Assembly (NCBI GenBank): GCA_026874595.1
Contig: CM049317.1
Coordinates: 35,306,901 to 35,370,900 of the forward strand
Direction of reading: 5' to 3'
Source of the DNA: Sipunculus nudus
Taxonomy: Eukaryota > Annelida > Sipuncula > Golfingiida > Sipunculidae
Length of the DNA stretch: 64,000 bases
The notes under the pieces are model-generated. The model worked only from the letters and a program-made list of their open reading frames with translations, was not told the origin of the DNA and ran no database searches. Positions within the stretch are counted from its first letter, which is position 1. Every line of letters begins with the position of its first letter. Below are positions 3,092-42,730 of this stretch, one piece after another. Position numbers and translations under genes: made by a program.

Positions 3092-3189
3092 TTCGCATAC
3101 GGTGGCTGATTTAGGACACAGAAAAAAAAATATTTATCTCGTGATCTCGAGATAACATCTCGAGATCTCGACATAGAATTTCGCAAGAA

Positions 3190-3465
3190 AAAAAAATTTA
3201 GGAATCAAAAAAAAAATTTTTAGGAAGCAAAAAAAAAATTTTAGGAAGCAAAAAAAAAAATTTAGGAAGCATAAAATAAAATTATATGAAGCAAAAAAAT
3301 TTTTTAGGAAACAAAAATTTTAGGAAGCAAAAAAAAAAATTTAGGAAGCATAAAACAAAATTTTATGAAGCAAAAAAAAATTTTTTAGGAAGCAAAAAAA
3401 AAAAATTTTAGGAAGCAAAAAAAAAAAAAAATTAGGAAGCAAAAAAAAAAATTTAGGAAGAAACC
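3190..3465 (+). repeat. Tandem ~20-25 bp repeat inside left TIR
   Basis: About a dozen units of TTAGGAAGC followed by an A-run of variable length and ATTT. The mirror-image array (TTTTGCTTCCTAAAA units) occupies about 4690-4885 inside the right TIR, so the array belonged to the inverted repeat before or during its amplification. Confidence 0.85.
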
Positions 3466-4689
3466 CCAGCTGGGAATGGGTCTTATAACGTCACTTTGAC
3501 GTATAAACATTTTATCTAAAGGCTACTAGTATACAAGCCACTTGAGCAAGTGTTAACATACAGATAAAAACATGTAACCAAGTTATTGAAAGATCACTAG
3601 TTGATATTCGTTAGAGCATGTGAAACAATGCAGTATTTTTCATTTACAGAAATCTGTAATCTCTGAATTGAAGCCAGATGTTTCTGCCGGACGTCTTTCT
3701 TACGATCGGTGGCAATTTTTGCACCCCCCCCCCCCTGACCCATGTTATAAAAAAAACGTGGATATAGACAAAGACACCGCCTTTACCCATGCCATTGGCT
3801 CATTTTTATGAAAGATTAATAGATTATGTTTACCTAAAATTATGTTTATGATTACTTTCACTTCTTTAATATGTATATGCAAAGTTTTTACAAAGATTCT
3901 ATAAATAAGGCAGGTGAATAGCGACTTTAAGACCAAAGCAAAGCATTTTGCTGAAGAAAAATCATGATGAGAGATGATCGAAATTTTAAACCGTTTATTT
4001 ATGAATATAAAACATTTATGAAGATAGTTGATTAAATTAATCTGAGCTATAGTAAGAGCTATAGTGGATCAAGACTTGGGCTTTAGGGGCTGAAGCAACG
4101 CCCCTCCCCGACCCCCCCCCCCCCCCCCGGCGTACCTACCCGAAAACACAGTAATCAGTTTTAGCATATTTTAATTTATGATGGTCTAATACATGTTCCA
4201 TAAAACGACACACCATTTCAATAAAACAAAAGCTGAAAGAAATTGTACAAAAAGCGTGTTTCTATAAGAAGCTCATATTTGTTTGTATTCTTAAAATAAT
4301 AAGGTACCCACAATGCATGCATGCAGACCTAAACATTTCTATTTGAGTGTTTTAACAGACATGGCTCCGAATCCGCCGTTCAGGTAGAATGTTTCAGATT
4401 CTTTAGGCTTTGACATCTTCCTTACGGATATGAATATTAAATATTGAATTTATATTGAACTTTTCTTCAACTCGCCTTATCTCACGGGATATACAAAATT
4501 GATTGATTTTAAATTAATTATATTGTATTACCGTTCAGTTAAACACAGTATACATGGTCTTTGTTTTATAATTGCAATAGTAAGCACTCTTAACGTATAC
4601 TGTCCCCATAAGGTTGCTTTGTTTTATGTCAATTTAGCTTCGAATGGTTCGTACAAGTGTGACATTTTTTCTGGAGATCTCGAAAGATA

Positions 4690-4972
4690 ATTTTTTTTTT
4701 TGCTTTCTAAAAATTTTTTTATTTTGCTTTCTAAAACTTTTTTTTTTTTGCTTCCTAAAAATTTTTTTTTTGCTTCCTAAAATTTTTTTTTTTTTTGCTT
4801 CCTAAAAATTTTTTTTTGCTTCCTAAAATTTTTTTTTTTTTGCTTCCTAAAATTTTTTTTTTTGCTTCCTAAATTTTTTTTTTTGGCGAAATTCTATGTC
4901 GAGATCTCGAGATGTTATCTCGAGATCACGAGATAAATATTTTTTTTTCTGTGTCCTAAATCAGCCACCGTA
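4690..4972 (-). repeat. Right terminal inverted repeat
   Basis: Reverse complement of 3098 onward. It contains the tandem TGCTTCCTAAA array and then the palindromic CTCGAGATCTCGA block and the terminal CAGCCACCGTA. The element's target-site duplication TTCGCA follows at 4973-4978. Confidence 0.8.
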
Positions 4973-18249: not shown

Positions 18250-18608
18250 TTATTTTGAACGCTTTAAACGCTTTAACACCTGGCTCAAGGAGAAACCAAT
18301 TCCTATTCCGATAAGAAGAGAAAATGACATAAATGCAGACAGCATTGGTATTGTCGTCCTCGCCAGATGTGCTGAAAAAGATAATCAAAACCAAAAGGAG
18401 AATAAAACATGCAGCAAAACGTATAATTCGACTTAAAAAAAAACTTCTCCTTTATACTCACATAGACTTTGTTTGTAACTCTCGGATATTTCTCTTATTG
18501 ACAATTCTTCTGTTTTAATATATTCAGTGTCAATGACAGTCCTTTCTTCTTGGATGTGTGTAACCAGATGTTTGTCTCTCAATGGGCTTTTTGTTTGTAT
18601 ATGTGCTG

Positions 18609-18650
<42 letters not shown>

Positions 18651-20666
18651 ATTTGCTTGGCAATGCCGAGGAATATGATAGATAACATCACATTTATACA
18701 AAAATTATATTTATAGTACAATTAGTATTTGTCTTAACCCGAGCGAGGAAACGTGCATGCGATCCTTACACGATGGTAAACACAATGTTTTGTATCTGTG
18801 ATGACAGCTAACAGATTCCCAGACATGGTCGGAACCCATTCTTTTCATCACACTACAGTTTCCTATGCGCCCTGGATGCTTGGCAGCCCAATGGGTAACA
18901 CTGAAAGATCTCGTAGTATAGACTGAAATGAGATTTAACATAAACATCAAAATATTAATGTCAGACATTTTTATATCAGATATGTACATGTATAGCCTGA
19001 AGGCTAGGTTAAATATATGTTATTTTTTCTGCAGAGTAACCATTCTATCGTTAGAAATTTATTCACTTACAATTTGTACTGATAGGGTATGACCATTCTT
19101 CCCGCCGGAGTGCAATCCAATATCGGGGAAGTTGATTTTGTCTAAAATGGTTGACTATGTGTGCAATGATGCTGGCCTCCCTCTCCCGTGGAAAAATAGC
19201 AAGGGACCATCCCAATCTTGAACAAAGCCCTTTGGCATTCTCCCAGTTCAAGTGAAACACCTTCCTGATGTAACATGTGTCATTGATGTTTACACAGTCT
19301 CCATCAATTTCCAAACATGAAAAACATCCTGAAAGTAGGCCGATACTTAGTGTATATATATATATATATATATATATACAGCAATTTTGTCTAAATGTAC
19401 AAAGAAAAATGAAATATCAATAAGAGTGAAAGGTATAAACTGACCTGTCGCCTGACAAAGAACACCCTTGTCCCGTAAATGACACATTCCCGCTTCTAAT
19501 CGTTTATCTCTTACATTTAGGCTAACACAATTCATCTCCATATCCCATTTCTGAGACAGAAAAAGATCGGCTGAAATAAAAGATGGATAAAAGCAAAAAT
19601 CAACATTGTCTTATTTTAAATGTATAGTTATTGAAAATTCTTAACAATGCATTCTCTCGCACTGAAGCATAATTGGTCTGGATATATTAAATGGTGTTAA
19701 AATTAAGTAGAGCAGTTTTGTTACTTTGACCTAACAATTACTGGACTTCTTCCACTATTTGAAGGCGAGCTATCCGTGATCAAATATAGGTTTAAGATGA
19801 AAACTTAGGCTTTAAATGCACCCACAAGTTTTGTCAAGATGATCGTCATGTAACCCTGACCCTTGATATCATGACCTTAAAACTGATAGGCATCTACTCC
19901 TACAGATGGTTGAGCGAAATTTTAAAGGTTGAGAATTTGAGATGAAAACTCTGGCCTAATATTTGTTCACACACTTTTCAAAGATGTCCTGTTACCTTGA
20001 CCCTTGACCACATTGAGTCAATTAAATGGTTCTTTTATACTGGTGAGTCATATTTGAATGATCTAGATTTTAGGATGAAATATTTGACTTAAAATGTGTC
20101 CATAAGGTTTTTCAGGAAGTGGGGCCTGTGTCCGTGACCTCATACCCCAATAACAAAATATCGATAGAGTTCTTCCATCATGGGTATGCGAGCCATGTGT
20201 GAAAGATAAAAGGTTTGGAACAAATGGTTTTGCTTACAATGGGCCCAAAAACCAACATTGAAGGATAGTCAAATATGCATTGTGATATCAACTTAAAATA
20301 CTCACATGGTTTGCTGCAGTCAAGCCAAAGGAATTGGCCTAACCATTTTCTCTGAAGGCCGATCCATATAACCTTTAGTAATTTGGCATCCATCGCCCTA
20401 CTGATCTCTTCGTAATCTCTTTCATTTTGAATGATTGGTAGTTTACAATTCCCCTTACATACTCCCTGAATAGTTCTCCACGGGCTGCATTTCAGAACCC
20501 TGATATCGTTATCTGATCAAAGAAAGATACACAGTGCTAAATAGTGATTTTGCATGAATTAAATAAATATGAGCAAGCTTTCACATGATTCTCTTTATGG
20601 TACTCTACCTGTTTTGGCTTGAATCTTCAGCGAAATAAATATGAATATAAACAAAGGACTCTGCAT
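18250..20666 (-). CDS. Double C-type-lectin membrane protein A, 307 aa
   Basis: Six exons: 20666-20609, 20512-20306, 19570-19445, 19328-19071, 18922-18770 and 18371-18250, all joined at phase 1, giving 924 nt with one stop. Residues 1-19 are a signal peptide (MQSPLFIFIFISLKIQAKT). CTLD1 spans about 20-130 (VIWIGLQRKW, then MNCVSL and GVLCQA). CTLD2 spans about 131-267 (NWENAKGLCSRLGW, YWIALRREEW, GNCSVM, YKTLCLP). Residues 275-297 form a membrane helix with a Gly-x-Gly-x-Gly pattern, followed by a ten-residue basic tail (VLKRLKRSK). Neither CTLD shows the EPN or QPD calcium/sugar signature, so ligands may be protein or non-classical. A type I surface topology is predicted. The short tail has no signalling motif, so it would need a partner to signal. 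Its start lies 182 bp from the divergent lectin-GTPase gene. Confidence 0.85.
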
Positions 20667-20848: not shown

Positions 20849-22340
20849 ATGGAACGTTACTTGCTGTTATTGATAAAACTGTCCCTGGTGATAATCCATT
20901 GTATTAGAGGTATGATTACTGTTTTTCTGTTTCATTTACCGTTTTTCTTTGCTAATTGGCTTTTTTCGACGAATAGGCATTAGCCATAATTGTATCATTT
21001 TAGGCTCTTGTGTATTTATGATCAATTACCAGGTGATTATTTCAGGAAATATAATAAAAAATGATTGCCGAGTGCCTGCAACACTAGAAGAAGCTAGAGC
21101 ATGCTGCCACAGTAAAGGAAAATATTTACCTGGGCCGCTGACTAAGACAGAAAATGCAAATTTGTTTAAAATATTAACAATTCAGAATAAGACCTCTACA
21201 TGGCTTGATGTATACCGGGTGGAATTTCCGAGCTGGACATGGTTTGATAACACTGTTGAAGGTAAATCTGACAACCTGCACATCTACCAATATGAATGTG
21301 AACATAAATTAACCTCAGACCATTCAAAAAGACAAATTGGCTACCTGTTCCGACATTATAAAGACATTATTATAACACCTGCATATTGTTTTTGTGTAAA
21401 GATATTAAATTAAACATATATCATAGTATATGAGAAATATTGAAACATTTTGCTTAAGAGAATGTTATGCTTATCAGGTGAAAGTATGATATTGACAAAC
21501 CGGCCGTATATTATGGCAAATTGATGTTTTAGAGCATGCATAAATCATTTTCTTTCTATTTTAGGGTCCCTTGAAGGGAATGGATGTGGTCTGTTTAATT
21601 CGACAACCCAAAGTTTAATCGCTGAGCAATGTGGATCTATTCAACACGGAATAGTCTGTGGTGTTAAAGGTAGGAAATAATTGAACGATAGCATTTTATG
21701 TAGAAGTCCTAAATATTATATGATAATAACATGATTTATGAGTCTCTTACTGTCAATATATTATCTTTCGTCATTTTTTTTCTTGTATCAGGATGCCGCA
21801 GTTGCTACGAACTCGGAAGTCTGTCCGTGGCATGCCATCAGATTGGTAATAGCTGTTACCTATTCCTATGTGAAGACACTAATTGGTTCGCAGCATCTTC
21901 ACTCTGTAGATCCCTAGGTTATACTTTGGCGGTAATGAAACATCTTCCGAAAACAAACGCTTTGAAGAAAAAATACATGTGTGACACTTTCTGGGTTGGT
22001 GTAAGGAAAGAAGATTGGATTTATCATGATGGGAATATAAGTACGTTTAATTTATGCTCGGACACTAACTGTGTTAAAAAGTAAACGATTGATTAATTAA
22101 AAAAATTTATATGACACACATTTTTCACTCAATACATGCCAATTTAATAAGTAATCTGTTTTAGAATTCGCAAAACCTTCTGCTAAACTTTTACAGGCTT
22201 AGGTGGATCCGGAGTTTCTATTTGGAAGGAATCTTATATCAGTAAAACTGGCAATTGTTCTCATTTTCTCATCACGAATTATGGGTATAAATGGCAACGG
22301 ACGATGTGTGAGGACAGAAAGGCCTATATTTGTCTTACTG
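20849..22340 (+). other. Ectodomain exons 1-5 of the lectin-GTPase gene
   Basis: These exons encode the signal peptide (MERYLLLLIKLSLVIIHCIR) and two CTLDs, every intron being phase 1. CTLD1 shows EEARACCHSKGKYL, TWLDVYRVEF and a second half with GNGCGLF and GIVCGV. CTLD2 shows NWFAASSLCRSLGYTLAVM, FWVGVRKEDW, GNCSHFL and AYICLTG. Lectin A and B have the same order and phases, and similar exon lengths (258/105/249/144 nt here; 207/126/258/153 in A; 204/114/249/156 in B), so the three ectodomains are paralogous cassettes. Confidence 0.88.
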
Positions 22341-24375
22341 GTAACATGTTTCAGTATTTTTTTCCCAGGTATCATAACATTTTACTCATACTATCATATG
22401 TTCCTTATACATCTTACTAGAACCTAGATTTTTCCATAAGTCGAATGTTCTAAAGTCCAAAGATATGTTTCAGTATTGTGTAAAGAAAGTATTGTTCAAT
22501 CAAATGTTCAATCGATTGTTTTAGGGTGACATAGTCTTTATGTGAACATAACCAGCAGAAATAATCATTTAAATGTTTGGACGATATCTTAGTTTGAAGT
22601 TTTTAGCATTTGAACTTTTTATATAGCATCATAAACATCATTGTTTTTACATTCGTGTATTTGCATGTAAACTGTAACATGGTTGATAAATTATGGAACA
22701 TCTTTCTAATATTTGTTTATTTTTACAGGCGGAAATCGGAGCACCCTAGTAACAAGTCTAGCTCTAACATCGCTGTACACTAAATCCACAGAGGCAACGA
22801 ATAATGAGAAAGATAGTGGTAATGTTTTCATTGCCACTGAGTAATAACTTTTACCTCGTTATCGTGAAGTATTTTAGCAGGAAACATTTATCTTTGCTGT
22901 GGATGTATGTTATATTTGTATAAGAAATAAACCTGTTATATGTGTAATATCTCTGTCTCTCTCTAATACACACACAAAAACACACATATATATATATATT
23001 TAAAACATGTAACCTGTTTTATTGTACAGATCCAGGTATAAGACCTGAGGTTATCGTATCTGTCGTGTCTGGGATATTAGGGTTGTCTGTGATAGTGTTC
23101 TTTGCGATTATACTTTTTGTAAGTATTACAATAATTCAATATTAACAGAAATTTTAATTTTCCTCCTGGACTTTTAACTAATTAGTATTCAGTATCCTTA
23201 TATAAAATAATATTAACGATGTTTATTTCCTCAGATGAATAGGAAACGAAGACACAGGGCGACCTTTAAAAAAGACGGTATGTTAAAACTGTTTATCAAA
23301 TACTAACCTGTCTTAAAGAGGTGATTTAACTTCAAACAAGTGAAGAAGGTAATGGGATCTCAATTCCGAGTTGACGTTAACTCTTCTGTTTTTCTTTACA
23401 GAAGCATTTGATCAACATGGATTATGTGATCAACCAACCGCGATCACTCCTTTGCAAACAATCGAATGTGGCCCAGGTAATTATAATGAGACCCAATATA
23501 TAGATAATTTGCTTTGGTAATTGCAAAACATATCTCATTTAGATACGAGAAGCACCTGTGGAATTTTTTTAGATCACAGTTCATCCTGGTTATTAGCCTG
23601 GTTTTTAAAGTATAAGATCACTACGTTGATAATTATGAAAATGCCACTTCGCGTGTATAAATATGATGCATTTATGATGTATATATTATTCAATCTTATA
23701 AAATACTTATGCATGATTTAAAAAATAAAATTTATTATAATCATCAAAACAACAATATCGCTCAAATCTGGACAAGAAAACTACATTTTCAGAACTTTTA
23801 TAACATTTTATTAATCGCTATACCTTCAAACAGATACAACAAACGAATACACAAAAGTTTTCCGATGTATTGTGCAGCCTTTGTCCTGTTTATAAGAATA
23901 TTGCATAAGTATTTCCCCGAAATATAAAAATATTAAATATACGGAAGAAGTCGAATAAAAAGGGTCATGAGGTGTATTTCAAAGTTTTCTCCTTATAACA
24001 CAATCGGCTGATGTGTTTATTATTCTACACCAAAATCGGTGTAATATTGGTAGAAATCGTCATTTTGATCCTGAAATTGGCATAATGTTTTAAATTATTA
24101 CCTGGTAAGATAAAACAAATTTACTCAAATTTTGAAATTATGACTTCCAGGCAGAGCGGTTCACATCGTAGATTGTGACAGAGATACTGGAGTTTTAACC
24201 ATGAATAATGCTCTACTGTCCAACATCTTATATAATCCTGCATTCAATGATCCAGAATGCCCACTTGTGGTGCTATCTATAGTAGGACCATTTCGAACTG
24301 GAAAGTCCTTCCTGATGAATTATATTTTACGATATCTGCTTGCAAAGGTACGTAAATCCTCTGTCTCTGTCTGTC

Positions 24376-24432
<57 letters not shown>

Positions 24433-24433
24433 T

Positions 24434-24483
<50 letters not shown>

Positions 24484-24691
24484 GGATAAACTGCCTGTAT
24501 AACAAACTGATCTGCAGGAAAAAAATGAAGAGGACGAATGGATGAAAGATAAATATGCCCCCTTGGAAGGGTTCGAATGGGAACCTGGAAGCCCCGTTAC
24601 AACCCTAGGTATATGGATCTGGAGTAAACCTATCCTAATAACTCTAGCTGATTCCTCTCGGGTATGTTTTTTCACTAATTTTTCTCATTTA

Positions 24692-24727
<36 letters not shown>

Positions 24728-27700
24728 TAGGAGCCTGGTAGAAAATCATCTTCTCAATAATTTTTAGTTTATCATTTTGCAGGTGTGCATTCTCTTGATA
24801 GACACTCAAGGCCTGTATGAGCTTGACAACAGGGCACAGCAATCTGCTACAATGACCACATTGAGCTGTTTAATAAGCTCAATGCAGGTATATTCCATTA
24901 TCGCCGACAACATATCGAAACACCAATATTCCGTTAACCTGGATAAATTACTATAAAAACATGCACACACTCATTAAACTTATATATACATGTATATACA
25001 TTTTGATTAATTTGATTTCTAACATCTCTCATTATTTCACGTCCCTTTTTGTCTAGGTGGTGGCAGATTTCAAAATTGTTCGTTACCAATATGCCTGAAC
25101 TTCTTTGTATTTTCTTATAATTTATGTATTACAATTTCATAGATATATAACGTTACGATTGAAGTGTCGGAGGAAGATCTGGAACGCTTAAATGTGAGTA
25201 CTGTATTCAAAACCGTAGCTTAAAATATACTTTTTAATCTTTAGATGTTTACAAAATTCCTCCCAGTAGATAATTTTGATAAGATGTGTCGCACAAATCA
25301 TACTTACAGGTGTTTGGAAGAGCAGCACAAATACTAATGGAAAGGGATTCGTGCAAAGAAGGGACATCTAGCAAGCCCGTGCAGGTAAATAAAATATGTA
25401 GATTTTTGACCGAAAACATTTTCCAATTCCGGGGATTTCCGTCATTCTTTTACGCATGCTGATATATTCAAAAATAAATTTGTCTAAATATTTAGTCAAG
25501 ATATTAAAGTTGATTGTGTCAAAACTTTCAGAAATGCAATATAGACTTCAGGCATTGATGTTGTTTCCGTGCAGTGTCTTAGCATCTGCGTTTGTTGCAT
25601 AATTTGATCTTATGTATTTTTACCTTATTTTGTTTGATGTAAGATGATGTGTGCTATCGAATTTCATACCGGTAAGAGATCCATTGTGGACGAAAGGCAG
25701 CAATCCTTGAAACGTAGGAATAGCTTGGTCCTAATTGAGGATCATTCCAGTTTCGTCACATTATTTTAAAACAAATATACCAGAAATTGCGATAGCGGTC
25801 TGCATCAAGCTGTAAAGGGTCGCCGAGCAGAAGGCTAGTACGTACATGCAAGTCATAGATGACATCAGTTTTATCCATCTGTTTTTTGTGAGCCAAAATT
25901 GTATTTTCCACCTATTACTTTATAAGTAAGACAATATCGCAATTTGGCTTTAATAGGATGAGCAAGTGGGGAATGAGTATGAACTGGCGCTAATTTGTTC
26001 ACCTAAGCCAATCACTTCTTGTGTTCATACAAATAAGAAACCATAAACACTTCAGAATATCATGGTTATATGATGGTTAACTAATCCTTTCACTGGTTGA
26101 CACTTAGGTCACTGTTAACTACAGAGAAATCCCTTTTTGCGGGCATCTCTGTACTAAAGGCACCTACTATTTACGGCCATTCACTGGCAGTGCCTTAAAA
26201 TTTACTTTTTATTGTCATATATTTATTTTCTCAATTGCTGGCACCTCCCTACTGTGAATACTAGCAGTTATCTAGGAACGGGGCTGTCAAAGTACGTCAG
26301 TATTGCAGGCAAATGGACAGGCGAGCCTGGGGCAAACGCGGATAACTCCGAGGTTCTTTAATCTTTAGCGGCCATCCGATCAACTGTTTTAAGTTTGAGC
26401 AGTGTGCGTTGCCCTCAAACGCCCGAAGTGGCTTTCCTGACATGCCAGGTGTGAACATGGCGTGTATTGGTCCTCTCTGTGAACACATTTGTTTTTTTTT
26501 ATAGATCTTAATCAGTTTCCCTGTCGTGCTTATGACTGGGCTGACAGTCTGCCTGATGGCTCATCTGAAGTTGATAAGGTCAATTTAAGCTATCATCAGA
26601 CGTGTCAGTTTCAGCAAATCTCATTAGCGGGTCTGCGATTCAGTGATGAATTCATGAAATTATTATTGTGCCCCCGAGGACAATAGGATCAATGTCAGTC
26701 ATTTAGAATATTGTGCCCCCGAGGACAATAGGATCAGTGTCAGTCAACTAATTTTCGGCATACATGCCTGTGTATGAATATTGATGTACACCAATTTATG
26801 AAATCCTGTCAGGAAAATAAACGCGTAATAATTTATGTGATATTTATTACCAAAGCGACAAAATCTCAAATACAACACAGATTATTAATTGTCAATGAAT
26901 ATTTACATGCTGGGATGTATGCTTGGACATACATTGGAAATATGTATCGAGACATGCATAAGTTGAATGATACTCAAATCAGCATTTTACTACTCTTGCA
27001 TTTTTTTTCACGTCCCAGCATAATTAGATCCTCGATGCTATTTACCAATATGATTTTTTTCCTGCTGGTCAGTTAACTTTAATAATTTTTAGAACCTTAT
27101 ATTTATTGTGAGAGACTGGAGTGTTGACAATACATCTTTTCCACATGGACTAGAAGGCGGAAGAAAATACCTTAACAAGATACTTCGGGTGAGAAATGGA
27201 ACAAACATGATTCATATAAGTATGATATGGATAATTTCTTTTTAGAAGACCAGGAAAAGGGCAGGACAGGAATAAAATAAACAGCCAACAGTATAATATT
27301 TTATATGTCTTTATAGCCAAGCGTTTCGGTCACAAATATAGGGAATGACTTCAACAAATATAAATTGTTTATTCATTGATACAGAAAGTAATCAAGAAAA
27401 AAAATTGTTAACGTGTTATAGACAAACATATGTTACCATATCACAGGGTCATAATATCCCTCAGAAGCAAAAGCACCTGCGAGAGGAGCTCTTTGCAAAA
27501 GTGGGCGACCTAGCTTCTTTTCTTATGCCTCATCCTGGTCATCGGGCAGCAGAAGGTGTGGAAGGATACAACGGAAACTTGTCAGGTTGAAATACATTGC
27601 GTAACCTGTCGTTACTTAAGATACGTGTCTGTGTTTTTCTAATAATCATATTTATTTTAAGCGCAGCTTCACAGTTTTTACATACAAAGTTTTGACCTAT

Positions 27701-30575
27701 TTCCGTCAATGGATAAACACACGCCGTTTTCTTTCACGCACTCACCTACAGTCTCTTCGTCATTTTTCATGGATGAAGGTAAACTTGGATAGGCCTATAT
27801 TTCAAATAAAATGTTTGTAAAAAATATTGGATAACTTCCAGGGTAGTCAGTAGTTGCTTATCATATTGAAGTCTACTTGCTCATTCAGTTATCTTTTTCA
27901 TTTGCCCAAATTACATATGTATGATTCTTTTTCAGTGAAAATTTGAATATTTCTTTACCTTTTATGCAAATTATTATAATCCAAGTTTTCAAATTGCTTA
28001 TACTATCACATTCTAGCTGAAAAAGCCTTCATTTTTCAGGACTTAACAAATATTTCAAGAAGAGTCTGAATGATCTATGCAAATATTTATTCGATTTAAA
28101 AAGTATCTGCAAAATGCATCGTGGGGACAAACTACTTTTTGGAAAGGACCTTTGTCGACGTATCATGGTACAGTTTTATTTTCAGTATTACCTTGTATAT
28201 AAATGTATTGAATTTTCGTCATTAGCACGTGATACAATAACAATTGATTTTAACCAAATATTCTGAATATTACTTTCAGCTTTATGTCTCAGCATTCAAT
28301 GCAGACCTGTGTGCAATACCGGTATCAACCGTTGATGTGAGAATTAGTTTACTCTGATGACGCGTCACTGGTGCTTCAAAATCAGAAGTGTCAACAAAGC
28401 CGATTATACAATAACACTATAAGAAATATTATAGTCTAAATTGTTATTTGAAATATATTTTTTGACAATTATATTGCATTATCATATCAAACACACGCAT
28501 TTCACCACATATTACACTGAAAATAAAACTACGTTTTTTCAATAAGTATACATGTTTGTAGGAACTCTCCTGCGAAACAAACAAGTTATCATACAAGAGG
28601 GCCATAAAGCGTTTCTGCGAATCGCTTCATGAGGTGATTTTTTTTTAATATCTGCATTATTTTATTTTGTTGACATTCCCATGATAGACTGAAAACATTA
28701 TTAGCTCTTCATATTTCCATAGTTGTTATGATTAGAACACTAGATATTAACATAAGCATCACATTGCAGTTGGTGAGAAAATCTGTGATTACGATTGGAG
28801 ATGAGGAGATTCAACGAATGAAATTAGTGGCTCTATCTTTGTACGATTCATCAGCAATTCCTGACAGTGAAAATGTGACTTTGTATAGGGATAAATTGGA
28901 AAGTGACATGGAAAAATTAGGACCATCTACAACTGTCGTAAGTTATGCCAGCATCTACATTTATTATATCGCATCTACTTTATACATCCGTCTCAGACGG
29001 GATATATTATGATATATTATGAGCATCGTATGTCCGTCCATGAGTCCGTACGTCTGTCCGTTAACTGGTAGTGTCGCCGCGATGACATACCTGAGCTCTG
29101 ATGGAATTTCAAAAAACGTCCTTAACTACTTACCAATAGAATTTGTCGTCTTAGTTCGATTCCAGGCAAAACCGCGCATGTTGATGAGGTAAGAGTTCAC
29201 ATGGCTTCTCTGTGGTATTCGAATTCCCGCAAAATTTATGCATATTTCTTGAGGTCAGAGGTCATAAAAGACGGTTGTGGTATTAATGGGATAAATACAG
29301 ATTTCTTGGTTGTTATGGGAAATGAAGGACACATTAGCTGAAAATTTATTTCTCATAATTTAGCACATACATTATGTACAATTCTACTGTACCAAAATAC
29401 CCTTTTCGGGCCGCGTTTCATTTATGACAGTTTTGATAAACAGTTTTTCAATTATCTTGCAATGGGCCCTGCTTAATTTATCACCGTAGTCTCAGCATTA
29501 ATCAATAGTATGATTAATAAATGTATTTTTTGTATAGCTGTATTTAGCTGTACATACTACTTCCGGCGTTTGTGATCTCTGCGGGTCAAAACATTCTAGG
29601 GGTTTTGTATGCCCAATCCTGGAGGTCCCAAAAACTATGGTTACAATATATGCCTGCGCCTAGTCATATAATCCCTGTGAGTGCGCGAGATACTTCTAAA
29701 ATAACTGAAAGATTTCCTTATACGCAGATTACAACCAAAAGAGCAAGCAAATGAATTGACCTTAACTGTACCTTACCGCGCCTCCTTGTTATGCAAATCT
29801 TACAAAATTATTTTCAGTTTTTTTTCAATGACGGAGGACCTTGCATAGATTTATCATGTACTATAATGATTACACCATTATCATTATTTATGTTGTGTGG
29901 TTTTCTCCTGTCATTTCTAACTATATATAATGAGAGCACTACAGTTCAAACTAATGTCTATTTGGTCATGTCACTTGATCCGTTAGGGAAATAATAAAAA
30001 TTGAAATGTGAGGAACTTGATTCTATATTTAACATTTCTCTCAATCTTGATTGACACATTTTACAGTCAGTTACCTGTAAAATGTCAGTATGGAAATATC
30101 AATCAAATGGTTCATTTTTAAGATTGTCCGTTTCAAACTAAAACTTAACAGAAGTTGCATTATCGGTTGATCACTCTTTGTGAAGAGTTGAACCATTTGT
30201 AGAAGTCACAACAAGATTTAGCATTACACTAACTCTAGAATGTTAACTGTAATTATATGTATATATATATATATATATTTTCACGGAAGTGTATCTATCT
30301 TACAGTTATGATATCTTAGCATTGATAAATATTGCGGTTGTCCATGGTCCAGTCAAATCAATTATTTCACGAAATGAATGAATATTTACCCTTTCCATAT
30401 ATTGGATGTTTACAGATAGCATAAGAAATGCATGAATCCTTTTAAATCCAATACAAATGTGCTTGACCTATTATTTATGACCTATAGCACCCTGAGGGGC
30501 ATCGTGTTTTAGAAGCTGTCTCTTACTACTTAAGAAATATGAAGTTGGTAAGTTTAGTTTTGGTTTATAATAATA

Positions 30576-30609
<34 letters not shown>

Positions 30610-31057
30610 TATTATTATCATTATTATTATATTATAATATTATTATTAATAATGCGCCTTGTTAGTTAGAAACCAAACTAAGAGGGCACAACCTTGTATC
30701 AGAAATGCACGATTGATTTGATAATTATAATGTGTGTAGTTAACAGAATGACAGTTCAAATGTTTAGGTTAACCAACCATTTGTTATGTGAAATTCCGTA
30801 CAGATTGTGTATGTTCTTAGCTTGTTAGCGATACTTTCATTATCGACCAGAGTACATGTATGGTTCGAGAATAATCTGATAGAAAAAACATATGATATTT
30901 CCAGAATCAAGGGAAGAAAAAGCCAGATGAGAAATTCGAATCTCTGCACGAGGAATACAAATGGAAAGCATGCAATTTAATAAATGATCCAGTGCTAAAG
31001 ACCGATCTAAGGGACACGATTGACAGTATGAAAGCAATTCCATTGTCTTTCAATTAA
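20849..31057 (+). CDS. Lectin-receptor GTPase: 2x CTLD - TM - GBP/atlastin-like GTPase, 852 aa
   Basis: Twenty-two exons: 20849-20909, 21004-21261, 21565-21669, 21792-22040, 22197-22340, 22729-22818, 23030-23118, 23235-23277, 23402-23476, 24151-24347, 24518-24661, 24783-24887, 25143-25193, 25310-25384, 27093-27188, 27447-27585, 28040-28167, 28280-28336, 28562-28633, 28770-28937, 30488-30547, 30905-31057; 2559 nt in frame. Residues 1-20 form a signal peptide; CTLD1 is about 22-141, CTLD2 142-272, the stalk 273-309, the membrane helix 310-332 and the basic stop-transfer KRRHR 336-340. From 372 a dynamin-superfamily GTPase begins: P-loop GPFRTGKS 417-424 (Arg420 equals the GBP/atlastin catalytic arginine), switch T466 in TTLGIWIW, G3 DTQG 492-495, RD 569-570 in VRDW. 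A helical region runs from about 655 to the end. No C-terminal membrane hairpin is present, unlike atlastin. The CTLDs lack EPN/QPD. A ligand-clustered, membrane-anchored GTPase is inferred. Confidence 0.9.
22729..23476 (+). other. Stalk, membrane and linker exons 6-9 of the lectin-GTPase gene
   Basis: Exon 6 encodes a Ser/Thr-rich stalk. Exon 7 encodes the helix VIVSVVSGILGLSVIVFFAI and onward, ending in phase 0. Exon 8 encodes MNRKRRHRATFKKD. Exon 9 encodes a 25-residue cytosolic linker with no recognised motif. Phase changes from 1 to 0 after the membrane exon and returns to 1 before the GTPase, so the linker exons are the bridge between modules. Confidence 0.85.
24348..24517 (+). repeat. 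(CT)n(AT)n microsatellite filling intron 10
   Basis: Intron 10 of the lectin-GTPase gene is only 170 bp, and most of it is a CT run (about 24379-24433) followed by an AT run (24436-24481). The long pyrimidine tract lies 84 bp or more from the acceptor. Confidence 0.9.
24696..24724. repeat. (AT)n microsatellite in intron 11
   Basis: AT dinucleotide run between the exon 11 donor (24662) and the exon 12 acceptor (24782). Confidence 0.9.
25385..27092 (+). other. Intron 14 of the lectin-GTPase gene, 1.7 kb
   Basis: Larger than most of its neighbours, and it separates the G3 half of the GTPase from the RD-motif exon. It contains a locally GC-rich block at about 26280-26760 with a 45-bp tandem repeat, probably an old transposable-element remnant. 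The open frame at 26489-26686 follows a TATAG acceptor but does not fit the phase-0 intron without an early stop, so it is not called as an exon. Confidence 0.6.
26665..26745 (+). repeat. 45-bp tandem repeat, two copies
   Basis: ATTGTGCCCCCGAGGACAAT and the following bases occur at 26665 and again at 26710, with one substitution in the shared 36 bases. Confidence 0.85.
28990..29240 (+). repeat. Dispersed repeat copy in intron 20
   Basis: Shares ordered blocks with the reverse complement of about 47045-47285: ATATTATGATATA, a run of CCGTCC/GTCCGTTAACT units, GTCGCCGC, ACTTACCAATAG, and TTCGATT..AGGCAAAA.CC. Two copies with the same block order define a dispersed family; its class is unknown, perhaps a MITE or the end of a larger element. 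Confidence 0.65.
30566..30655. repeat. (TTA)n microsatellite in intron 21
   Basis: Imperfect TTA/ATT trinucleotide array shortly after the exon 21 donor. Confidence 0.9.
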
Positions 31058-39026: not shown

Positions 39027-41075
39027 CTTTTTTTTTTTTTTTTTTTATTAAACCAAAAATACATAAAACAATAACATAAAGACAGTAAACAACATACAAC
39101 ATACAACATAAAATATATTACTTCTACATAATAAATCTGGATCGTATTATTCTTAAATCAAAAGTCTCTGTTCCGGATACCTAACATCATGTCCATCATG
39201 AATTTGATTATAGTTGTTAATAATACTATGATCCAATATGTCCAAGAATATGTGTTCTGTATTAATTTACAAAAGAATACATATAACAAAAACATAAAGA
39301 CAGTATACAACTTGCGACATTCAATATAATTCTTCTACATAATACACCTGGATAATATTATTTTTATATCTAAAGTCTCTGTTCAGGATACCTAACATTC
39401 ATCATGAATTGGATTATAGTTGTTTATAAAAATTATGATCAAGTATGTTAAAGAACGTAATGGTTTCTCCTGAACAGCGCTGTATAGATTTATAGTGATG
39501 ATCTTTTTAACTGTGTACAGTATGAAAACAAAAACGCATGCTTAATAATTAACATCAAAGGCTGTTTTCTGCAGATAGATGAATGTAATATTTGTAAAAC
39601 CCCACACAATCTCATGATGATAATACTAGTATATCTATGTCTCAGTTAAATAAAATATTTAAACAAAATACTCAAATTTAATTTAAGATATACTAAAAAT
39701 ATGATAAACTAAAAAAAATGAAAGAATAGCAAATTTTAGTGGAATTGAAACTAAGTTTGTAGAGTATGAGAAATAAAACATTTCATTGGTGACCACTTTT
39801 TCTCGTGGTGATCCAGTTTGTTTTTGCTGACAGCTATATATTTTTCTACTGTATGTATTTCACTGATGAATTCTTTCAGAGTCACAACTGTTGGTTTTTG
39901 TTTATTGCATCTGCTCACATATATATGTCTCTTTACTAGTAGAGTCAGTAGGTTTATCGAGTCATTATCATAACATCCCAGCATTGCAGTTTCAGCTGTC
40001 AACTGAAAAGAATTGTCTAAAAAGCCGAATAGTTTTAATTGTTTAATTATTTCATTCCATAAATATTTGGAAAATGGACAATCCCAGAATAAATGCAACA
40101 GAGATTCTTTTTCATTTTTACAAAAAGTGCATTCAGCTGAATCAATTTTGTTAATTTTATGTAAAAAAGGATTCAGAGTTACACAGCGATGTAGTAACCG
40201 GAATTGAAAATATCTGAGTGGAACTGATATGGTTGAAAAATAAATGTGTTTAAAGCCCTTATAAACATTGACATCTGAATCTAGATCTTACTCTGCCTTC
40301 CATTTGGCAGTGATTTTTTCAGGCAATACTGCTTTCTGCATTATTAAATCATTATAAGTTAACTTGACAGGTCTTTCCATTGTCATAAGATTGTCTATTT
40401 TGAAAACATGTTGTTTTACTTGGTTTTGTTCATGGTGTTGCTTGATAACTTTTTCCAGCTAAGAGGGATGGAGCGAAGTAAACCATTAAAGCTTACAAAA
40501 TCAATGTGCACTTTATATTTTTTACAAAATGCATGGTGACTTAACCATGAGATATTATTTCCTATTTTTGTGACCAAGTCTGAGATATATAAAACCCCTG
40601 CTGAGTAGAGTTTCTTTATAAATATTATCTGTCTCCCTCTCTTGATATATGAATTAAACCAAAGAAATTGTGACATAATATCAGCATAATTTAACGGAGC
40701 TTTATGGTAATAGTAACACCACTGGAACATTACATCTTCCCAGAATGTTGAAGGCTTATTCAATATGTGTTTTATATCCTCTGGTGCAACGTTACAACGA
40801 AAAGAATGGGTACCCAATTTAAAATAGGACAAAACAAATTGCCTTCATGCATTATTCTCAGATTTGCTTATCAACCTTTTAATCCATGAGATTTTTAGTG
40901 CTGTACTTTGGGTTAATAAATGTATCATGTTCAATCCCCCATTTTTGGGAGCAGAAATTAATGTGTTTCTCTTCACCAGTTCTCTTCCATAACCCCAAAT
41001 AAATCTGAATAACATTTTCTCAACCTGACTATAGATTTCTATAGAAAACTGTTTCTTTGATAATCTGTAGTTTTC
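39027..41075 (-). mobile_element. 5'-truncated, decayed LINE (C-terminal ORF2 fragment)
   Basis: The minus strand encodes, in broken frames, FIWGYGRELVKRN and NGGLNMIHLLTQSTALKISW (about 41010-40870), SQFLWFNSYIKRGRQIIFIK (about 40680-40610) and HLFWDCPFSKYLW (near 40095). These match the region downstream of reverse transcriptase in L1/Tx1-type non-LTR elements, the last being the zinc-finger-like terminal motif. A 3' UTR with an internal 217-bp tandem repeat follows, ending in a poly(A) tract seen as the T-run 39027-39047. The RT and endonuclease regions are absent, and multiple stops show it is dead. Confidence 0.8.
39054..39460 (-). repeat. 217-bp tandem repeat in LINE 3' UTR
   Basis: Blocks ACATAAAGACAGTA, TTCTACATAATA, AGTCTCTGTTC.GGATACCTA and ATCATGAATT occur in the same order starting at about 39057 and 39274, with moderate divergence. 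Confidence 0.75.
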
Positions 41076-41890
41076 TATTATTATTACTATTACATAATAT
41101 TATTATTTACCCATCCGACGATTCGATCCACTTTAATGTGCAGAGTCGCAAAGACTGCTGAGTGGAACCTGTCAGAAAAGACAACATCTATCATGGGAAG
41201 GTCGCCCATAATATCACTTGGCAGGATATTGGCCAACGCATCAAGTTCATTTTTCTCACTGCCTACACACAGACTACAAGTCGTCTAAATTTTGGTAAAT
41301 TATATCAACAGTGCATAGTATTCCTGTAGGGGGGAAGGAAGTAAATTCCCGCCTTTGCTATCCCTTGACCAAAGATTGCACTGGTCACCGCAAGGCGACG
41401 TGAACCCCTCTAAAGGTCATACCTAAATAAGGGACGGCGGCCCCATCTGAGGGTTAGTATTTTCAAGAGTGCAGCCTTGATATCAGCTTTGAGATATTTA
41501 TTTACTTTTATGCTCGATTTTACGTTCAGAATATATGCATTTTCATTGTTGCTAAGGTTAAGAACTAATTTGGATTAAATAAAAGAGATGGTACAGATTT
41601 TGCATTGTATACACTAAAAAAATACAACTGAATACTATAGAAAATTTAACAGACCTGTCTTTGTTTTTTTCTTGGAAAATATTTGACCGAATAAATCACT
41701 GGACATTGTTTTGAATGCTTACAGCCAGAAATGTACCTATACTTTTCGTATATACTGTTCGTATCCTTATGTACTGGTACCAGAAGCAAAGATTTTTTTT
41801 GTGAAATGAGGTAAATGTGTAGGTCAAGGTTTTTCTATGTGAATAATTTTTAGACAAGGATGTGTTTAATGTCCACACCTGTTTCCTTTA
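41076..41890. other. Intergenic stretch between two LINE fragments
   Basis: A GC-richer patch at about 41110-41450 looks like an unidentified old repeat. The remainder is AT-rich with nothing coding. Confidence 0.4.
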
Positions 41891-42730
41891 TATTTGGATA
41901 ACCTAAGCTATTTAATAAACAAGAATAGCAATGGATGTCAAATGAATGTCCTTTTAGTAAATCATGTATTTTATGCAGATGACCTTTGCCTTGTTGCCCC
42001 AAGTACAGAGGGACTGCTGAATCTTTTAGACATTTGTCAAATCCATGGCATTTCTTGTGATGTTATGTATAATCCTCAGAAAACAGTATGTTTGGTGAAT
42101 AGACCAAAAGGTTACAATCTTCTTTGCCCCAAGGGGACATTAGGAGGTTTTGAAATTAAGGTTGTACCAGAAGTGAAATATGTAGGCATTGTAATTCAAG
42201 ATACTATGCAAGATGAATTAAAACATTTATAGGCACGAAGTAATATCCTGTCGTATAAGTTTAGTAAATGTTCACCGCCGGCCCTTGCCGGCCCTTGTAC
42301 CAAGTATACTATTCCAATTTTATAATGTCAAACTCTGGTGTAATTATTCAAAAAGGTGAACAGTAAAATCATGATTGGTTGTTATAATGCACTGTCGGTT
42401 TCTTAACTATTCTAGAAAGGATAGTGCCAAGGTAATGTCTGTTTCTGATGGACTTGATAATCTCGATGTGGTAATACGGAAAAATAGTTTTAGATTTATG
42501 TGTAGATTTGAAAATAGTTAAAATAGAATAATAAGGCGTTTATATGATAACAACACAATCAAGTCTGGAGTCCTGTGGTCTACCTGGTAAACTTGCAAAC
42601 ACCAAAAAGAAGGTGATGGTGTAATCCAAGAAGTAATTTTCCTTAATGTAAATCCATCTTTTATGAATTCTTTTTTACATGGGTTTTTACCTTCAATAAA
42701 TATATTTTATCTTATCTTATCGTAGATAAG
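41890..42730 (+). mobile_element. Truncated LINE with YADD reverse-transcriptase fragment
   Basis: The frame at 41894-42232 contains VFYADDLCLVAPSTEGLLNL, the catalytic YADD block of non-LTR reverse transcriptase, followed by YNPQKTVCLV and VKYVGIVI, typical of the following motifs. It is broken by TAG at 42230-42232; recognisable but frame-disrupted sequence continues to about 42560. The copy ends in TTTATCTTATCTTATC near 42705-42720, a short tandem 3' tail like those of several LINE clades. The N-terminal RT and endonuclease are missing. Confidence 0.85.

Follow-up and report, generated by a model that had tools for sequence, protein, structure and literature searches.

Structure of the fusion gene

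The locus at positions 20849-31057 of the window, by which we mean the whole analysed stretch of 64,000 nucleotides of Sipunculus nudus DNA, raises the question of whether a C-type lectin receptor and a dynamin-superfamily GTPase are encoded by one and the same gene. The sequence-only reading had proposed an in-frame coding sequence of 22 exons and 852 residues with one stop, in which exons 9 and 10 are joined at 23476/24151. An independent rebuild reproduced this gene on the plus strand: 22 exons comprise 2559 nt including the stop codon and encode 852 aa in one open frame with a single terminal stop. All of the introns (21/21) are GT-AG. This includes the junction between the end of exon 9 (23476) and the start of exon 10 (24151), which is in phase, 1 to 1. 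A 23-exon version (891 aa) with an extra 117-bp exon at 27662-27778 was rejected, as this piece has a weak 'aag' acceptor and no counterpart was seen for it in atlastin. The features of the gene are the following, where CTLD denotes a C-type-lectin-like domain and A, B and V are the paralogues described below.

20849-20909, + strand: exon 1, with the start codon and a signal-like segment (exon model, hydropathy)
21004-21261 and 21565-21669, + strand: exons 2-3, CTLD1, divergent (Lectin_C 27.4 bits alone)
21792-22040 and 22197-22340, + strand: exons 4-5, CTLD2 (Lectin_C at aa 171-270)
22729-22818, + strand: exon 6, stalk (weak counterparts in the paralogues)
23030-23118, + strand: exon 7 (phase 1 to 0), transmembrane segment (hydropathy; A, B and V each have a transmembrane exon in the corresponding position)
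23235-23277, + strand: exon 8, polybasic stop-transfer segment RKRRHR, phase 0 to 1
23402-23476, + strand: exon 9 (phase 1 to 1), putative cytosolic linker (sequence poorly conserved in the paralogues)
24151-24347, 24518-24661 and 24783-24887, + strand: exons 10-12, first part of the G domain
25143-25193, 25310-25384, 27093-27188 and 27447-27585, + strand: exons 13-16, remainder of the G domain
24151-27585, + strand: exons 10-16 taken together, GBP/atlastin-type G domain with the motifs GPFRTGKS, TTLG, DTQG and RD
28040-28167, 28280-28336 and 28562-28633, + strand: exons 17-19, helical middle domain/tail
28770-28937, 30488-30547 and 30905-31057, + strand: exons 20-22, helical middle domain/tail and stop codon

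Paralogues of the fusion gene

Two apparently intact paralogues were found on another contig of the same genome. Paralogue A (about C17:6986202-6994209, minus strand) was modelled with 22 exons and 829 aa and is 34% identical to the window protein; paralogue V (about C17:6754642-6761968, minus strand) was modelled with 21 exons and 842 aa and is 31% identical. Each contains Pfam Lectin_C and GBP domains and is co-linear with the window protein in the order CTLD-CTLD-stalk-transmembrane segment-basic segment-GTPase-helical tail. A third copy, B, lies in tandem with A and carries an in-frame stop (TGA), and a fourth, D, is decayed. The sequence-only reading had looked to mollusc proteomes for a second case of this order; it was met with in paralogues, within one genome.

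The window gene, A and B allow the same reading of the exon phases: 1-0 for the transmembrane exon, 0-1 for the basic exon, 1-1 for the linker exon and 1-0 for the G exon. The separate linker exon is absent from V, where the basic segment and the G exon lie within one open frame. The basic segment reads QKRRR in A and B and KRRAKK in V. Exons in A, B and V were sought within the phases of the window gene only, which establishes that such borders exist and leaves room for others. In A and B, exons 8 and 9 were placed by eye. Weak assignments comprise exons 6, 14, 20 and 21 of V as well as exon 6 and parts of the tail of A, in which exon 20 is the third-best candidate.

The lectin and GTPase halves are both under purifying selection between A and B, the two youngest copies. 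The dN/dS ratio is 0.23 for the CTLDs (dS 0.415) and 0.22 for the GTPase (dS 0.377). It is 0.44 (dS 0.367) for the 83 codons of the stalk, transmembrane segment, basic segment and linker taken together, a value owed mostly to the stalk and transmembrane exons. Stop-containing codon pairs (the TGA of B), exons 1 and 14 and exons 16-22 were omitted from these ratios. At the nucleotide level A and B are 85.5% identical in exons (1451/1698, exons 1 and 14 being counted as exons) and 70.0% in introns (1928/2754). The transmembrane exon is 89% identical and the G exons 82-95%, whereas the basic exon (24/31, 77%) and the linker exon (38/54, 70%) do not rise above intron-level likeness.

Domains of the encoded proteins

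Pfam detects the GBP N-terminal domain at aa 387-663 of the window protein (1.1e-43) and Lectin_C at aa 171-270 (1.8e-13), corresponding to CTLD2. CTLD1 of the window protein passes the Lectin_C cut-off on its own (27.4 vs 22.6 bits), so that the two CTLDs claimed earlier are both recovered; CTLD1 of A alone also reaches this cut-off and that of V falls below it. In the window protein, A and V, Lectin_C scores 51.6, 50.7 and 56.7 bits (cut-off 22.6), and the GBP N-terminal domain 149.8, 114.8 and 127.7 bits (cut-off 21.1). The hydropathy profile of the window protein displays a signal-like segment at the N-terminus and a single strong transmembrane segment (about aa 308-332), in agreement with the single membrane helix proposed earlier, and no additional hydrophobic segment above the cut used. 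The transmembrane segment is strong in all three proteins, and in A and V it is the sole segment found at a stricter cut. By the hydropathy call, the signal segment is clear in the window protein and weak in V. The G motifs GPFR.GKSF, the switch I Thr, DTQG and RD are invariant across the three proteins. The nucleotide-binding motifs are preserved, and the earlier claim of a complete GTPase core is supported. An EPN or QPD motif, with WND, forms the calcium/sugar motif of C-type lectins and is missing from many lectin-like members. Inspection of CTLD2 in the window protein, A and V revealed neither EPN/QPD nor WND; A and V have EPS.

Lectin and GTPase loci across the genome

The genome contains dozens of CTLD and GBP loci. 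A genome search gave at least 41 clustered CTLD1-type loci. Among the matches listed, a GBP-like exon lies within 4 kb of three of the 41, namely the window gene, A and B; CTLD1 of V is outside these matches. About 0.01 such pairings would be expected if the loci were unlinked (41 x 40 x 8 kb / 1.43 Gb), although A and B are tandem copies. Several unfused loci among the matches listed are at least as close to the window CTLD1 as A and B are.

Fourteen other GBP loci were scanned for exons suitable for tree building; six gave all three exons used in a first tree and nine gave the two used in a second. The four family GTPases form one group (97/98) in the three-exon tree (11 rows), whereas they are grouped in only 12% of bootstraps in the two-exon tree (14 rows).

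As an upstream control, 11 distinct GBP-like loci were inspected, three of which belong to the family (L018 is A, L019 is B and L023 is V). No transmembrane exon was recognised by eye in the 1.1-1.5 kb upstream of eight loci (L001, L002, L003, L007, L024, L032, L036 and L037). An AT-rich hydrophobic stretch at L001 and a hydrophobic frame at L032 were judged by eye not to be transmembrane exons. Met-containing open stretches with putative splicing were found for L001, L003 and L032. A further locus, L087 (C17:51.35 Mb), has no CTLD in about 2.6 kb upstream; as one hydrophobic stretch (score 2.52) lies some 1 kb ahead of its G exon, it is not a clean control.

Relationship to known proteins

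The earlier assignment to the GBP/atlastin type holds and can be refined, since by sequence the GTPase is nearer to atlastin than to vertebrate GBP. The single-sequence match of the window GTPase is 9.3e-52 to atlastin and 8.9e-8 to vertebrate GBP. When a profile of the window protein, A and V was compared with solved structures, atlastin-1 was the nearest (3.6e-70). The match spans residues 2-403 of the atlastin-1 chain and 7-403 of the atlastin-3 chain and thus includes the helical middle domain, a region of the window protein in which Pfam gave no informative match. The likeness to atlastins (ATL1/3, Drosophila atlastin) therefore extends over the G and helical middle domains, with the P-loop Arg, DTQG and RD kept. 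Unlike atlastin, the window protein would be anchored by an N-terminal transmembrane helix behind an ectodomain, and the C-terminal membrane hairpin of atlastin was not found by hydropathy in the window protein, A or V.

With GBPs (GBP1-7, zebrafish Gbps) the protein shares the Pfam N-terminal domain, but it is predicted to be transmembrane with a lectin ectodomain and matches them less well than atlastin. Pfam found no GBP C-terminal helical/effector domain in the three proteins or in the window tail alone. A CaaX prenylation end, which occurs in some GBP members, is absent from all three (C-termini PLSFN, LCAFV and LASLL). The protein lacks some tested hallmarks of GBPs and some of atlastins.

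Receptors of the Dectin-1, CD69, NKG2D and langerin type have short tails. They match CTLD2 weakly by sequence, and the window protein would, like them, have a membrane-bound recognition module; it differs from them in its predicted type I order, two CTLDs and GTPase tail. The consulted text of a review ties the GBP family to defence and describes zebrafish Gbp4, a GBP with a C-terminal CARD, in which a GBP G domain is thus already known to be joined to a signalling module; that text mentions no lectin ectodomain or transmembrane segment for Gbp4 (PMC9005921). Bivalves possess expanded CTLD repertoires with some bivalve-specific architectures, and the words GBP, guanylate, GTPase, dynamin and atlastin have no occurrence in the main text on these multi-domain proteins (PMC10140915). 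Among the literature matches listed (titles and abstract openings), no description of a CTLD-transmembrane-GTPase architecture was found.

Proposed receptor and alternative explanations

We propose with moderate confidence that the single gene encodes a type I receptor with an atlastin-like GTPase tethered by its N-terminus, the likely mechanism being ligand-driven dimerisation of the GTPase. The two CTLDs would lie outside the cell or in a vesicle lumen, one helix would cross the membrane, and the large GTPase, consisting of the G domain and the helical middle domain, would be attached by its N-terminus in the cytosol. Binding of a putative ligand to the lectin domains, or their clustering, would bring the GTPase domains together. 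The GTP-loaded G domains may then dimerise, hydrolyse GTP and swing the helical domains, and this swing could tether or remodel the membrane at the contact site. Recognition and effector would be united in one chain, perhaps at the surface or in a phagosome and possibly in defence. The sequence-only reading had hypothesised a sensor that assembles GTPase polymers upon clustering. With a core of the atlastin type, dimers are better founded as an expectation than polymers.

It is unlikely, though worth weighing, that the fusion is real but serves membrane traffic or adhesion by tethering endosomes or cell contacts in the manner of atlastin, the CTLDs acting as an address rather than sensing microbes. 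Such a task would suit G and middle domains nearest to atlastin and a CTLD2 without the sugar-site motif, whose ligand need not be a glycan. However, the atlastin hairpin is missing by hydropathy, and an ectodomain drawn from at least 41 CTLD1-type loci resembles a recognition repertoire more than a single trafficking factor.

The full-length transcript of the proposed receptor is probably its main product. That splicing or several promoters yield a short-tailed receptor, a full receptor and a soluble GTPase, with the fusion being minor, seems improbable. The poly-A signals after exon 9 (AATAAA at 23724 and 23954) would allow a receptor-only isoform, and an internal promoter could yield a soluble GTPase from the Met with which exon 8 of the window gene begins or from the in-frame Met codons in the basic segment of V. 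Neither has a Met counterpart at the corresponding position in A and B, which weakens the exon 8 start, and the dN/dS of the stalk-to-linker region, a value owed mostly to the stalk and transmembrane exons, also speaks against this explanation.

We judge it very improbable that neighbouring genes are joined here by coincidence, with a CTLD receptor that stops near exon 9 and a distinct GBP-like gene that begins upstream of exon 10. The same AATAAA signals, which lie between these two exons, and the abundance of CTLD and GBP loci fit such an arrangement, and the intron-like A-B identity of the basic and linker exons raises its probability slightly. Against it, the order is repeated with compatible phases at the window gene, A, B and V, and the transmembrane exon is well kept between A and B. 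No in-frame Met precedes the first strand of the G exon in the window gene or A, the stretch between the transmembrane and G exons of A offers no ATG exon whose donor has a common form and whose phase fits, and in V a single open frame takes in both the basic segment and the G exon. Short of RNA, the strongest support for the fusion is the presence of the same gene elsewhere in the genome; the recurrence of its domain order at other loci makes a chance join of two genes and an assembly error both unlikely.

Implications

GBPs and atlastins are known as proteins of the cytosol or the ER, which encounter invaders or membranes from within. We tentatively suggest that these genes found a class of receptor-GTPases, surface or phagosomal lectin receptors in which the ligand would directly gate a dynamin-superfamily GTPase without kinases or adaptors, with at least three apparently intact members (the window gene, A and V) in one genome and a GTPase tail perhaps joined to different members of the two-CTLD repertoire. 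If so, extracellular recognition would be linked in one step to a force-producing machine inside the cell, and transcripts that bear the fusion out would establish a receptor of a new form. The consulted text of the review asks what role GBP and atlastin relatives have in invertebrate defence (PMC9005921), a question on which a receptor with a GTPase tail bears. The three apparently intact members make the fusion testable by expression, GTPase and dimerisation assays.

Neighbouring gene

Outside the fusion gene, another two-CTLD gene occupies 18306-20666 on the minus strand, its lower end being approximate. It stands head to head with the fusion gene, with the candidate start codons 183 bp apart, and paralogue V has a similar head-to-head neighbour.

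Structure of the fusion gene

The fusion gene was rebuilt from the raw sequence as 22 GT-AG exons (window 20849-31057, forward strand; 2559 nt) encoding 852 residues, with a stop only at the terminus. This independent model is identical to the one proposed in the sequence-only reading. The critical junction, between the end of exon 9 at 23476 and the start of exon 10 at 24151, runs from phase 1 to phase 1 and is thus in frame, as had been claimed. Hydropathy analysis of the protein revealed a signal-like stretch at the N-terminus and a single strong transmembrane (TM) segment at about residues 308-332, which is followed by RKRRHR. In Pfam the protein matches Lectin_C (1.8e-13, best stretch 171-270) and GBP (1.1e-43, residues 387-663). 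Tested in isolation, the first C-type-lectin-like domain (CTLD1) of the window gene and that of its paralogue A exceed the Lectin_C cut-off, and that of paralogue V falls below it. The lectin part, the membrane helix and the GBP/atlastin-type GTPase of the earlier reading were therefore all recovered, the last also in searches of solved structures, where atlastin-1 chains come first (9.3e-52).

In these searches atlastin-3 and fly atlastin come next, followed by a chain named LOC432253 protein (5.8e-29), while GBP5 and GBP1 (8.9e-8 to 1.2e-6) and GBP2 (6.9e-5 and weaker) score lower. A three-member profile (window, A, V) matched atlastin-1 at 3.6e-70. One chain aligned up to position 403, so that the similarity extends past the G domain into at least part of the helical middle domain. 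All three apparently intact copies (window, A, V) keep the P-loop GPFR.GKSF, the switch I Thr, DTQG and RD unchanged. In the same three proteins hydropathy detects no hydrophobic segment after the G domain, and the C-terminal CaaX box of some GBPs is absent.

Paralogues of the fusion gene

Both halves of the window protein, encoded on contig C12, were searched against the 1.43-Gb assembly of the same genome. The top non-self match of the receptor half (8.6e-16) lies on contig C17 near 6.76 Mb, where the GTPase half also matches (3.7e-9 and 1.8e-7). This locus, paralogue V, encodes CTLD1, CTLD2, the TM segment, a basic segment and the GTPase in that order, as do paralogues A (C17 near 6.99 Mb) and B (C17 near 7.05 Mb). 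The model of A contains 22 exons (829 residues, against 852 for the window protein) and that of V 21 (842 residues), as V has no separate linker exon. The exon scan was limited to the phases of the window gene. Assignment is weak for exon 6 of both paralogues, for exons 14, 20 and 21 of V and for parts of the A tail; the models are well founded for the exons of the CTLDs, TM segment, basic segment and G domain.

Identity of paralogues A and V to the window protein
CTLD1: A 30%, V 28%
CTLD2: A 33%, V 36%
Stalk-TM-linker: A 25%, V 20%
GTPase: A 42%, V 39%
Helical tail: A 27%, V 22%

Because an in-frame TGA interrupts the fifth exon of B (C17:7051783-7059999), within CTLD2, this copy may be a recent pseudogene. 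Copy D (C17 near 6.84 Mb, locus L084) is decayed: pieces of the stalk, TM segment and GTPase remain, and no CTLD exons were recognised within ~3.3 kb upstream of the stalk piece. The stop in B and the decay of D indicate birth-and-death turnover of the family.

Evidence for the join and origin of the fusion

The phase series TM 1-0, basic 0-1, linker 1-1 and G 1-0 is readable in the window gene, A and B, and in V one uninterrupted open frame runs from the basic segment into the G domain. Between the TM and G exons of A, no Met exon able to start a separate GTPase was found with the donor forms tried. A and B diverge at a dS of about 0.4; it is similar in the lectin and GTPase halves, which implies that the two were copied together. 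Their dN/dS is 0.23 in the CTLDs, 0.44 in the stalk-TM-basic-linker region and 0.22 in the GTPase, and their identity is 85.5% in exons, 70.0% in introns and 89% in the TM exon. The phase series, the lack of a Met start exon in A and the constraint between A and B lead us to regard the join as probable. This constraint flanks the junction on both sides rather than covering the short linking exons, since the basic (24/31) and linker (38/54) exons are no more identical than introns. Other isoforms could arise, given the poly-A signals between window exons 9 and 10, the Met that opens exon 8 of the window gene and the Met codons of the V basic segment. The analysis establishes the gene structure, the motifs, the constraint on both halves and the family of copies.

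The fusion probably arose once, though this is not proved. The four fusion-gene GTPases group together (97/98) in a tree of exons 10-12 (11 rows), and in only 12% of bootstraps in a tree of exons 10-11 (14 rows). The window CTLD1 is as near to several unfused two-CTLD loci as to A and B, and a GBP exon lies within 4 kb at three of the 41 two-CTLD loci (window, A, B) among the matches listed; the ectodomain thus appears drawn from a large repertoire. The upstream view of the control GBP loci spanned just 1.1-2.6 kb. One of them, the GBP-like gene L087 (C17:51352700-51355699), is not a clean control, as a hydrophobic stretch (score 2.52), a possible TM exon, precedes its G exon by ~1 kb.

Proposed mechanism and known systems

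The CTLDs would lie outside the cell or within a vesicle lumen, with the GTPase suspended in the cytosol via its N-terminus. In atlastin, GTP-loaded G domains dimerise and the helical domain moves. GBPs are described in PMC9005921 as behaving likewise. By analogy, a ligand gathering the receptors would favour G-domain dimers, and these would link recognition outside to the tethering or remodelling of membranes inside. The usual calcium/sugar motifs of C-type lectins are absent from CTLD2, and the ligand may therefore be a protein.

Both halves come from known families, and the function of the fusion is a prediction. Among the literature matches listed, none describes a fusion between a lectin domain and the GTPase of a GBP or atlastin. 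The main text of a bivalve CTL survey (PMC10140915) does not mention GBP, guanylate, GTPase, dynamin or atlastin; a clam RNA-seq study (PMC7430831) reports regulation of GBP1-like genes by PAMPs, in passages that give no architecture. Database gene models with the CTLD-TM-GTPase order may exist.

Neighbouring genes and other elements

The following elements are located in the window:
20666 to about 18306, reverse strand: gene with two CTLDs, in head-to-head orientation to the fusion gene
15231-13570, reverse strand: further two-CTLD-like exons (by eye)
3136-4934: tandem arrays in mirror image
39754-40287: HLFWDC frame, reverse-transcriptase-like (by eye)
41870-42229: YADDL frame, reverse-transcriptase-like (by eye)

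The candidate start codons of the two-CTLD neighbour (20666) and the fusion gene (20849) are 183 bp apart. V also has a divergent CTLD gene, with candidate starts 418 bp apart and alternatives present. The fusion gene and its divergent neighbour look to have been duplicated as a pair and may share a promoter. The neighbour contains a hydrophobic, TM-like stretch near 18400. As the exons at 15231-13570 are in tandem with it, a small cluster of CTLD receptor genes seems to be present in the window.

At locus L086 (C5:86457000-86461799), three CTLD open frames without introns follow one another (362, 381 and 441 aa). Frames of such sizes recur in dozens of places on many contigs, which suggests that a mobile element carries intronless CTLD genes; both frames tested in Pfam (2/2) contain Lectin_C. 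The mirror-image arrays at 3136-4934 consist of GCAAAAAAAAAAATTTAGGAA and its complement; similar 21-bp units edge them, an arrangement resembling that of a mobile element of about 1.8 kb. The reverse-transcriptase-like open frames, found on both strands over 39754-42229, are likely LINE remains.
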